A DNA stretch of 34,721 bases from an uncultured Sphingomonadales bacterium (GTDB lineage: Bacteria > Pseudomonadota > Alphaproteobacteria > Sphingomonadales > Sphingomonadaceae): the NCBI GenBank assembly GCA_937863505.1, contig CALMGC010000254.1, forward strand, positions 1-34,721, written 5' to 3'. Below, in pieces: positions 22,134-25,700 of the stretch. The notes below the pieces were generated by a model. The model saw nothing but the letters and a program-made list of their open reading frames with translations, was not told where the DNA came from and searched no databases. Position 1 is the first letter of the stretch. Each line of letters starts with the position of its first letter. The position numbers and the translations under genes were made by a program.

Positions 22134-22671
22134 TCGCCTTCTCCACCGTGCCTGCCTTGTCGCGGGTCAGCAACGCCCGCGCCAGCAGCACCAATACGCC
22201 CGTCGTTATAGCCGCGTCCGCCAGATTGAACACCAGGAAAGGCCGCCACTCGCCGAAGTGCAGGTCGGCGAAGTCGATCACGCAGCTTGGGTAATGAATC
22301 GCGCTCGCCGACACCTTGCCCAGCATGCCAGGCGGCAGCACCCGGTCGGCGATGTTGCCCAGCGCCCCGCCGAACACGAGGCCCAGCGCCGCCTGATCGA
22401 CGCCTTTCCGCTCGCGTAATAGCCACACCAGCACGCCGGTCGCGATCCCGCCGGTCAGCAGCACCAGCGCCCAGCGCATGAGGATGCTGTCCGTCTGCAC
22501 CAGCCCGAGCGACACGCCGCAGTTGCTGACAAAGGAGATTTGAAAAAACGGCGCGAGCCAGCGGACATCGCCGAGCTGGTTGATGCCCAGCACCGTCGTC
22601 ACCGCGTATTTCACCGCCTGATCCGCCGCGAACACCGCCGCCGCGACGCCGAGCCCCGCGCGCGCGCTCAC
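22126..22671 (-). CDS. lspA: Lipoprotein signal peptidase (signal peptidase II)
   Basis: FVSNCGVSLGL, GALGNIADRV, VIDFADLHFGEWRPFLVFNLADAAITTGV. GTG start 22671 overlaps the ileS stop by 4 nt. Confidence 0.95.
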   Translation of the reverse strand: MSARAGLGVAAAVFAADQAVKYAVTTVLGINQLGDVRWLAPFFQISFVSNCGVSLGLVQTDSILMRWALVLLTGGIATGVLVWLLRERKGVDQAALGLVFGGALGNIADRVLPPGMLGKVSASAIHYPSCVIDFADLHFGEWRPFLVFNLADAAITTGVLVLLARALLTRDKAGTVEKANA

Positions 22672-25613
22672 GCCACCACCTCCGCGCAGCGCGAGCAGAG
22701 CGCGCCGTCGATCGGCACCTCGGGGCGATGGCGCCAACAGCGGCCGCACTTCTGGAACTCGGTCCGGGTCACCGCCACGCCATCGCCGGGCGTGACTTTC
22801 GCGACGATGAACATCTCCGCCAGCGTCTCCGCGTCGAGCGGCGGATCGAGCACCGTCACCTCCGCCTCCAGGCTGGAGCGCACCTCCTTCGCGCGGCGCA
22901 GCGGCTCGATCGCCTCCGTCACCCGCGCGCGCTCGCGCCGTACCTGCGCCCAGCGCGCGGACAGGTCCTCGCCGGTCTGCTCCGGGAAGTCGGGCCATTC
23001 AAGGAAATGCACCGACCCGTCCTCGCTCGGGAACCGCGCCTGCCACACCTCCTCCGCCGTGAAGCACAGCACCGGCGCGGCATAGCGGACGAGCGCGTGG
23101 AACAGCGTGTCGAGCACCGTCCGGTACGCGCGCCGCTTCGGGTCGCTGGCGGCGTCGCAGTAGAGCGAATCCTTGCGCACGTCGAAGAAGAACGCGCTCA
23201 GGTCCTCGTTGGCGAAGTCGGTCAGCGCGCGGACATAGCGGTTGAACTCATAGGCCTGCGCCGCGCTCTTCAGTTCGCGGTCGAGCGCGGCGAGCAGGTG
23301 GAGAATGTAGCGTTCCAGCTCGGGCATGTCCGAGGGCTGGACCCGCTCCTCCTCCGCCCAGCCGTCGAGCGCGCCGAGCAGGTAGCGGAAGGTGTTGCGC
23401 AGCTTGCGATACGCGTCGGACGCGGTGGCGAGCACCTCCTTGCCGATCTTCACGTCGTCGAAATAGTCGCATGACGCCGCCCAGAGCCGCAGGATGTCCG
23501 CCCCCGCATCGCCGATCACCTTCAACGGATCGACGACGTTGCCGAGCGACTTCGACATCTTGCGCCCCTTGTCGTCGAGCGCGAACCCGTGCGTCAGCGC
23601 GGCCTTGTACGGCGCGCGCCCGCGCGTGCCGCACGACTCGAGCAGCGACGACTGAAACCAGCCGCGATGCTGGTCGGAGCCCTCGAGATACAGGTCCGCG
23701 CGCGCGTCGGGGCCATAGCGCGCCTCGACGGTGAAGACGTGCGTGGAGCCGGAGTCGAACCACACGTCGAGGATGTCGGTGACGACCTCGTAATCGGCGA
23801 GGTCGTACTCCGCGCCGAGCAGCGCGGCATGGTCGGCGGTGAACCACGCATCCGCGCCGGCCTGCCTAAACGCGGCGATGATGCGCGCATTGACGGCGGG
23901 GTCGGCGAGATACTCGCCCGTGCCGCGGTGGACGTAGAGCGCGATCGGCACCCCCCAGGCGCGCTGGCGCGAGATCACCCAGTCGGGGCGGCCCTCCACC
24001 ATCGAGCGTATGCGGTTCTCCGAGCGCGCGGGCACCCAGCGAGTGCGTTCGATCGCGTCAAGCGCGAGCCGGCGGAGGGTGGACGAGTTATCTCCCCTCC
24101 CGCTTGCGGGAGGGGTCGGGGGTGGGCCTGAGTCGAGCAGGTCCGCCCGTTCGGACAAGCCCGCCCCTAGCCCCTCCCGCAAGCGGGAGGGGGACTGCCC
24201 GCCCCCGTCCATCGGAATGAACCATTGCGGCGTCGCACGGAAGATCAGCTTCGCCTTGCTCCGCCAACTATGCGGATACGAGTGAGCATAATCATCGCTC
24301 GCCGCCAGCAACGCCCCCGCCCCGCGCAGGTCCGAACAGATCGGCCCATCGGACGCGACAAACTTCTTGTTGATGACGCTCCCCTGCCCGCCGAGCCACG
24401 CCCAGTCCGCGCGGTACATCCCCGCGCCGTCGACCGCGAACACCGGCTCGATCCCGGCGCTACGGCACAGCTCGAAATCATCCTCGCCATGATCGGGAGC
24501 CATGTGGACGAGGCCGGTGCCCGCGTCGGTGGTGACGAAGTCGCCGGGGAGGAACGGGCGCGGGCGGGCGAAGAAGCCGCCTAGGTTGTGCATCGGGTGG
24601 CGAGCGACGGCACCGGCGAGCTGCGAACCTTTGACCTTCCGAGGCTCATCCAGAGCCGCCTGCAACACTGAGAAAAGCGGCTCCTTGAGCAAGCCATCCG
24701 TGTGGAAAGGCGGCCACTTCTGCCCAGCAACACGCTCAACAAACTGTGTAAACAAGGGCTGTGCTATAAGATATTCACGCCAATCACCCGTCGCGGCATC
24801 AGACACACCGCCGATCAGAACGTATTCAATCTCCTCCCCATACGCGAGCGCCTGGTTCACCGGGATCGTCCATGGCGTCGTCGTCCAGATCACCGCATGC
24901 GCGCCGACCAGCTCCGGCGCGTTGGGGGCCTCGACGATCTCGAACGCCACGTCGATTTGCGTCGAGACGATGTCCTCATATTCCACCTCCGCCTCGGCGA
25001 GCGCGGTGCGTTCGACCGGCGACCACATCACCGGCTTCGCGCCACGGTACAGCTGGCCGCTTTCGGCGAACTTAAGGAACTCGCCCACGATCGCCGCCTC
25101 GGCTTGCGGGTCCATCGTCAGATACGGGTCGTCCCAGTCGCCCATCACCCCCAGCCGCTCGAACTCCCCCCGCTGCACCGCCACCCATTTGTCGGCATAG
25201 GCGCGGCACTCGGCGCGGAACTGCTCGACCGGCACCTCGTCCTTCGACTGCTTCTTGGCGCGATACGCCTCCTCGACCTTCCATTCGATTGGCAGCCCGT
25301 GGCAGTCCCAGCCGGGCACGAACGGCGCGTCCTTGCCCATCAGCGTGGCCGAGCGGACGACGATGTCCTTCAACACCTTGTTCATCGCATGGCCCATATG
25401 GATGTCGCCATTGGCGTAGGGCGGGCCGTCGTGAAGGATGAAGCGCTCACGCCCGGCGCGCTGCTCGCGGAGGCGATCGTACACGCCGATCCGCTTCCAC
25501 CGCTCCAGGATCGCGGGCTCCTTGGCCGCGAGCCCCGCCTTCATCGGGAAGTCGGTGCGGGGGAGGAAGACGGTGTCGCGGTAGTCGCGTTGGGGGTCGG
25601 GAGTGTCGGCCAT
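22668..25613 (-). CDS. ileS: Isoleucyl-tRNA synthetase with in-frame repeat-derived insertion
   Basis: HIGH motif PYANGDIHMGHAMNK, editing domain, KMSKS motif DKGRKMSKSLGNVVDP, C-terminal zinc-type Cys pairs KCGRCW/LCSRC. ATG 25613. Confidence 0.97.
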   Translation of the reverse strand: MADTPDPQRDYRDTVFLPRTDFPMKAGLAAKEPAILERWKRIGVYDRLREQRAGRERFILHDGPPYANGDIHMGHAMNKVLKDIVVRSATLMGKDAPFVPGWDCHGLPIEWKVEEAYRAKKQSKDEVPVEQFRAECRAYADKWVAVQRGEFERLGVMGDWDDPYLTMDPQAEAAIVGEFLKFAESGQLYRGAKPVMWSPVERTALAEAEVEYEDIVSTQIDVAFEIVEAPNAPELVGAHAVIWTTTPWTIPVNQALAYGEEIEYVLIGGVSDAATGDWREYLIAQPLFTQFVERVAGQKWPPFHTDGLLKEPLFSVLQAALDEPRKVKGSQLAGAVARHPMHNLGGFFARPRPFLPGDFVTTDAGTGLVHMAPDHGEDDFELCRSAGIEPVFAVDGAGMYRADWAWLGGQGSVINKKFVASDGPICSDLRGAGALLAASDDYAHSYPHSWRSKAKLIFRATPQWFIPMDGGGQSPSRLREGLGAGLSERADLLDSGPPPTPPASGRGDNSSTLRRLALDAIERTRWVPARSENRIRSMVEGRPDWVISRQRAWGVPIALYVHRGTGEYLADPAVNARIIAAFRQAGADAWFTADHAALLGAEYDLADYEVVTDILDVWFDSGSTHVFTVEARYGPDARADLYLEGSDQHRGWFQSSLLESCGTRGRAPYKAALTHGFALDDKGRKMSKSLGNVVDPLKVIGDAGADILRLWAASCDYFDDVKIGKEVLATASDAYRKLRNTFRYLLGALDGWAEEERVQPSDMPELERYILHLLAALDRELKSAAQAYEFNRYVRALTDFANEDLSAFFFDVRKDSLYCDAASDPKRRAYRTVLDTLFHALVRYAAPVLCFTAEEVWQARFPSEDGSVHFLEWPDFPEQTGEDLSARWAQVRRERARVTEAIEPLRRAKEVRSSLEAEVTVLDPPLDAETLAEMFIVAKVTPGDGVAVTRTEFQKCGRCWRHRPEVPIDGALCSRCAEVVA
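24094..24192. repeat. REP-doublet-like palindromic element inside ileS coding sequence
   Basis: CCCCTCCCGCTTGCGGGAGGGG (24094-24115) and CCCCTCCCGCAAGCGGGAGGGG (24171-24192) in inverted orientation, similarity continuing inward (TCGGGGGTGGGC.TG / CTAGGGGCGGGC.TG). Confidence 0.9.
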
Positions 25614-25700
25614 GATGGGCGGGGGTGTAGCGGGCCAAGGCGCGCCCGTCACCCCGAAGCGGTCCGGCCCGAGGCGCGCTCCGACGTACCAGCCCCACTT

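Follow-up and report, generated by a model that had tools for sequence, protein, structure and literature searches.

The presence of palindromic repeats in frame within essential genes is seen as a curiosity of Rickettsia, with scattered examples elsewhere. The Rickettsia palindromic elements (RPEs) are in-frame palindromes in housekeeping genes (Ogata 2000, 2002, as cited in PMC10969869 and PMC3733652). As far as these accounts go, RPEs resemble the Sphingomonas elements described here in being palindromic repeats of about 100-150 bp, belonging to several families, that lie in frame in housekeeping genes and are apparently translated. PMC3733652 (Di Nocera 2013) describes intragenic GTAG and CGTC REPs, as singles and dimers, in many species. 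Its examples include REPs inside tRNA synthetase genes of the sphingomonads E. litoralis and S. alaskensis, inside dnaE2 and the dnaE of R. conorii, and in recB of two Xanthomonas, where they occupy about the same site. The CGTC REPs in that account have a CGTC end tag, a stem of 8-9 bp and no transposase. Since RPEs and intragenic REPs in sphingomonad synthetases, dnaE2 and dnaE appear in these sources, the kind of event reported here is already known, and the finding is best filed with the Rickettsia-type protein-coding palindromes.

There are also clear differences. Unlike RPEs, the Sphingomonas elements occur in another genus, probably have other sequences, are GC-rich REP doublets and occupy a few linkers that many families reuse in different species. 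The element studied here has neither the GTAG nor the CGTC tag, and whereas the REPs in the examples given in PMC3733652 are mostly at different sites, here there is one site per gene, reused genus-wide. No description was found of a single linker in each essential gene being reused by several families throughout a genus, although PMC3733652 may list single ileS or leuS examples. Among the papers searched, there was none linking Sphingomonas REPs with isoleucyl-tRNA synthetase (IleRS) or with intragenic REPs.

The window, that is, the whole stretch of DNA that was analysed (34,721 nt), is contig 254 of a Sphingomonas-type MAG (3.06 Mb, 324 contigs, 87.7% complete). A preliminary description of the window had claimed an uninterrupted ileS frame running through a palindromic element and had quoted the encoded peptide; both points were confirmed (Table 1), and the protein matched IleRS entries in the PDB down to E 7e-208. 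The inverted pair of 22-mers, CCCCTCCCGCTTGCGGGAGGGG and CCCCTCCCGCAAGCGGGAGGGG, was likewise found as described and spans 99 nt from outer end to outer end. The 22-mers lie in 37-nt arms (24094-24130 and 24156-24192) that are 86% complementary and separated by 25 nt. The strong mRNA hairpins that had been anticipated were reproduced computationally, the element as RNA having a predicted energy of -89.2 kcal/mol (z = -8.2 relative to dinucleotide shuffles). The 20-mer core, CCCTCCCGCNNGCGGGAGGG, had no second mismatch-free occurrence within the window, and when up to 3 mismatches were allowed there were 4 matches compared to 0.17 expected, a number reached in 0/100 shuffles. A search of Rfam 15 with the window and five loci gave no match.

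Table 1. Features of the ileS locus, with positions in the window.
Feature	Positions	Strand	Description
ileS, isoleucyl-tRNA synthetase, intact	22668..25652	-	994 codons; open frame; PDB IleRS matches; AlphaFold2 model compared with IleRS structures
Variable IleRS loop, residues 483-524, 42 aa, contains the element	24081..24206	-	81-species comparison; residues 485-523 with pLDDT <50
Palindromic repeat element, family F1	24094..24192	.	99 nt; two inverted REP-like arms flanking a variable spacer
First 22-nt palindrome, CCCCTCCCGCTTGCGGGAGGGG	24094..24115	.	
Second 22-nt palindrome, CCCCTCCCGCAAGCGGGAGGGG	24171..24192	.	
Spacer separating the 37-nt arms	24131..24155	.	unconserved among same-genome copies

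The loop that holds the element is bounded by PQWFIPMD and TLRRLALDAI. The two conserved halves meet directly at residues 415/417 of S. aureus IleRS, and in the remaining families of the order this segment reads PQWF(V/I)SM(E/D)KTG-LR, with a loop of 3 residues compared to 42 in the window protein, so the direct run through this segment stated in the preliminary description was correct. An earlier AlphaFold2 model made from a shallow alignment (pLDDT 51) was discarded. The usable model, built from 52 order-level sequences, had a pLDDT of 82 and a pTM of 0.81 and gave a TM of 0.79 with bacterial IleRS structures. The low-confidence residues 485-523 were flanked by an ordered strand (476-479) and an ordered helix (526-536), and the modelling thereby places the insert as a predicted disordered loop amid ordered segments of the catalytic core.

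The core was found at 20 places in the source genome, compared to 0 for the backward-read control, and BLAST located about 19 additional places, each with either the complete element or a single arm. Alignment of 14 copies gave the consensus CCCCTCCCGCTTGCGGGAGGGG(C/T)TAGGGGTGGGC..spacer..GGCCCACCCCCRACCCCTCCCGCAAGCGGGAGGGG, with conserved arms, a variable spacer and flanks shared over a few bases at most. Most copies are intergenic or lie next to genes. Three conserved genes apart from ileS also have in-frame copies. In dnaE the copy separates the PHP and polymerase domains, in putA it separates the two enzyme domains, and in leuS it lies a short way ahead of the editing domain and is itself interrupted by a second, nested element. 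The element is multi-copy, and its sequence distribution, as dispersed palindromes in frame in these four genes, would correspond to the RPE pattern.

The element had also been called REPIN-like. The dispersed, in-frame palindrome was verified, and its layout of two inverted REPs with a variable spacer between them is that of a REPIN; the class assignment did not hold. A profile search for RAYT (Y1_Tnp, PF01797) found none in the source genome, as far as it is complete, nor did 33 of 36 other genus genomes give a match, and the GTAG end tag was absent from the 14 F1 copies inspected, where the stem is followed by CTAG/TTAG or TCGG/CCGG. REPIN/RAYT membership was rejected on these two counts. 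The CGTC end tag was absent from F1, which has a stem of 10 bp. No target-site duplication was visible at the 14 copies or in close relatives. With respect to MITEs, the inverted arms are present, no direct repeats are visible at the 14 copies and the window copy has no empty site in a close relative.

A separate type of element, designated N-type, is about 64 nt long, has the ends AGTT(T)C..GAA(A)CT and two inner hairpins, and could form a three-way junction. It was located in ileS (L115, L088), dnaE (L197), leuS (L222, L226) and at three other loci (L157, L163, L165). At 8/8 places examined it lies within a REP stem, always in nearly the same position, which fits REP-targeting elements; it is possibly a REP-targeting miniature element. 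Nesting in REP stems at a fixed point is shared with the MITEs and IS elements that target REPs; in contrast to these, no transposase or target duplication was identified here.

A genome scan gave 80 Sphingomonas-type ileS loci, so that 81 genes, including that of the window, could be compared. The best match to the window protein had 77% identity, and the window species therefore has no near neighbour among the scanned loci. The loop between PQWFIPMD and TLR..ALDAI ranged from 12 to 70 residues in these genes, and about half of the 81 loops contained a palindromic repeat. Cultured strains with an element in ileS include Sphingomonas sp. UV9 and S. aurantiaca. By sequence, the repeats fell into at least seven unrelated families, with labels assigned by eye from DNA and peptide: F1, the family of the window's element; F2, CCCTCTCCCCTTCAGGGGAGAGGG; F3, CCCTCTCCCCTCCGGGGAGAGGG; F4, CCCCTCCCCTTCAGGGGAGGGG; F5, a longer, four-hairpin element; F6, GCTTCGACTTCGCTCAGCACGAACGG; and F7, CCCCAGCG..CGCTGGGGTGACG. 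F1 to F5 and both nested elements (L115, L088) were dispersed repeats in the host genomes tested. For F6 and F7, only the copy itself was present among the matches listed in the host-genome search, and parts of each recur in the flanks of other loci. F7 in L111 has CGTC/GACG ends and is CGTC-like in look. Another loop type, 'F8' (DLPGAGRSAEVGA), has a palindrome and was not counted as a family for want of evidence for multiple copies.

Perfect hairpins with 9-bp arms, counted irrespective of family, had a density of 7.0/kb in the ileS loop, compared to 0.087/kb for the remainder of ileS and 0.196/kb for the flanks (612 kb, intergenic DNA included), so the density in the loop was about 36 times the flank average. 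In a separate, evenly drawn sample of 31 same-genus genomes that included the window's, 25 loops were readable and 16 of these had an element or remnant that we judged recognisable. Two side observations were made on ileS. The Hephaestia caeni gene (L123) has a different in-frame repeat in the editing domain, with the peptide RHSREGGNPEAS..DSRLRGNDG, the only ileS repeat found outside the loop. The loops of L119, L086, L089, L087, L097, L071 and L123 share a common linker type (RSATSDLPGAGRSAEVGA) with the palindrome ACCTGC-CGGGG-GCAGGT; the stem has compensating changes between species and a likeness to a nested-element hairpin.

Repeat peptides of various families were also found in the linkers of leuS (8/30), dnaE (at least 5/30) and putA (about 11 of 26 genus genomes, L252-L281, several families). 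Hairpin density in these three linkers was 1.8-2.7/kb versus 0.05-0.16/kb in the rest of their loci. Since they behave like the ileS loop, all four in-gene positions confirmed in the window genome are recurrent in the genus. The PRODH/ALDH linker of PutA is perhaps the one most often hit after ileS. One putA copy (L280, from G026) has a match whose halves fall in separate frames, which suggests a frame shift; no element is present there.

On a tree built without the loop, a minimum of 28 changes in loop type, and of 14 between presence and absence, is required. The spacers of F1 differ among the window copy, L050, L088 and the group L046/L047/L053/L061. A comparison of L065 with L078/L080/L085 showed that the whole linker was exchanged, not an old linker split by an insert, while identity in the flanks, taken as 600 nt to either side, was 95-97% in the two pairs measured. 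Because genes that are nearly identical differ in the whole linker, turnover is recent and can be replacement and not simple insertion. In L086, L089 and L119 an older type of linker can still be seen next to the element. The loop has 3 residues in the order's other families and 21 residues, with no repeat, in the family with the closest IleRS; consequently, the origin of the long loop lies close to the base of the family to which the window belongs. The single jump into a tight loop envisaged in the preliminary description therefore does not describe what was found: the loop is long throughout the family and in its sister, has turned over among close relatives and holds at least seven families, in different species. 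Part-elements in some element-free or half-filled loops (L057, L076, L114, L121, L122) suggest that old insertions may decay into ordinary linkers; the loop is also long in about half of the species, those with no recognisable element, where an origin by decay is not proven.

Every one of the 81 ileS loops, 30 leuS linkers and 30 dnaE linkers is a multiple of 3 and free of stops, and for ileS this indicates translation rather than removal. Among the putA linkers the one exception is the frame-shifted copy L280. The element-bearing loops are 45% P+G+S and 12% bulky hydrophobic residues. The ileS element is very probably read as a floppy protein loop in the cell, as judged from the sequences and the model, and the core of the preliminary description, a repeat element translated within an essential gene as a tolerated loop, is well supported by the copy number, the frame and the predicted disorder. 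Alternatively, the inserts might be lost through RNA excision, translational bypass or protein splicing, so that the functioning enzyme would never contain them. Bypassed elements elsewhere have strong hairpins, and the predicted -89 kcal/mol is of that kind; strict retention of frame, however, would be unneeded if the insert were removed, and the copies in the source genome have a length divisible by 3 in only 7/14. Removal is thus very improbable, and excision and bypass were rejected on the strict frame and stop-free retention. The same 7/14, with 67% of frames open, means that a translation-compatible insertion is not rare. An assembly or binning artefact might be suspected in a draft MAG of 324 contigs, but the reading frame is intact and many isolate genomes, including the one-contig G010, have elements at the same loop; this idea was rejected and has almost nothing to commend it.

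The observed copy number, in-frame position, recurrence, multiplicity of families and turnover are probably best explained by a dispersed, apparently non-autonomous REP doublet of about 100 bp that entered an already permissive ileS linker, where it codes for a disordered surface loop, with such linkers reused genus-wide. In Sphingomonas, elements of many unrelated families would spread genome-wide, most surviving copies being intergenic, and those in genes would survive only in tolerant protein linkers with the frame kept open. The open frame would be fairly easy to keep because GC-rich palindromes lack stops in most frames. Since survival needs both a tolerant linker and an open frame, the same few linkers would be repeatedly hit, overwritten and nested: in ileS after the editing domain, in leuS at the turn before the editing domain, in dnaE between PHP and polymerase and in putA between the enzyme domains. 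Old inserts would then decay into ordinary linker sequence. Tolerance as the cause of the enrichment in linkers is our inference, and the roughly 36-fold excess in the loop is more than simple tolerance obviously predicts, while the whole-linker exchange between L065 and L080 counts against a simple insertion picture. Both, together with the placement of the N-type inside the REP stem at all eight places (ileS, dnaE, leuS and three others), favour the alternative that the linkers are true targets of a mobilising machinery or of palindrome recombination (single-stranded hairpins, resident REPs), so that targeting outweighs tolerance. We regard this alternative as rather unlikely, given that the four genes are unrelated and have no evident common target sequence, that unrelated families use the same linkers and that the empty leuS sites have no palindrome. 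An active, RAYT-independent process that directs palindromes of many families to a few linkers of essential genes, replaces linkers wholesale and continually rewrites them from selfish DNA is a speculative and, in our estimate, unlikely proposal. It is more doubtful that the elements are kept as useful, for example as an mRNA hairpin that paces multidomain translation or as a functional linker: about half of the species have no element at the site and no visible compensation, the families differ in sequence and peptide, and loop length is anything between 12 and 70 aa, although the location at the edges of domains (preceding or following editing domains, and between those of PutA) and the repeated acquisition would suit such a role.

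Insertion of a dispersed REP doublet into permissive linkers, the preferred reading, brings the phenomenon known from Rickettsia into a free-living, cultivable genus, where at least seven families converge on the same linkers. It raises the concrete question of what moves REPs that have no transposase. The linkers in IleRS, LeuRS, DnaE and PutA are marked as tolerating long insertions, and the genus offers a replicated natural experiment in the conversion of mobile DNA to protein, in which insertion, nesting, replacement and decay can be compared in close relatives. Sphingomonas seems to derive protein linkers from selfish DNA on a regular basis.
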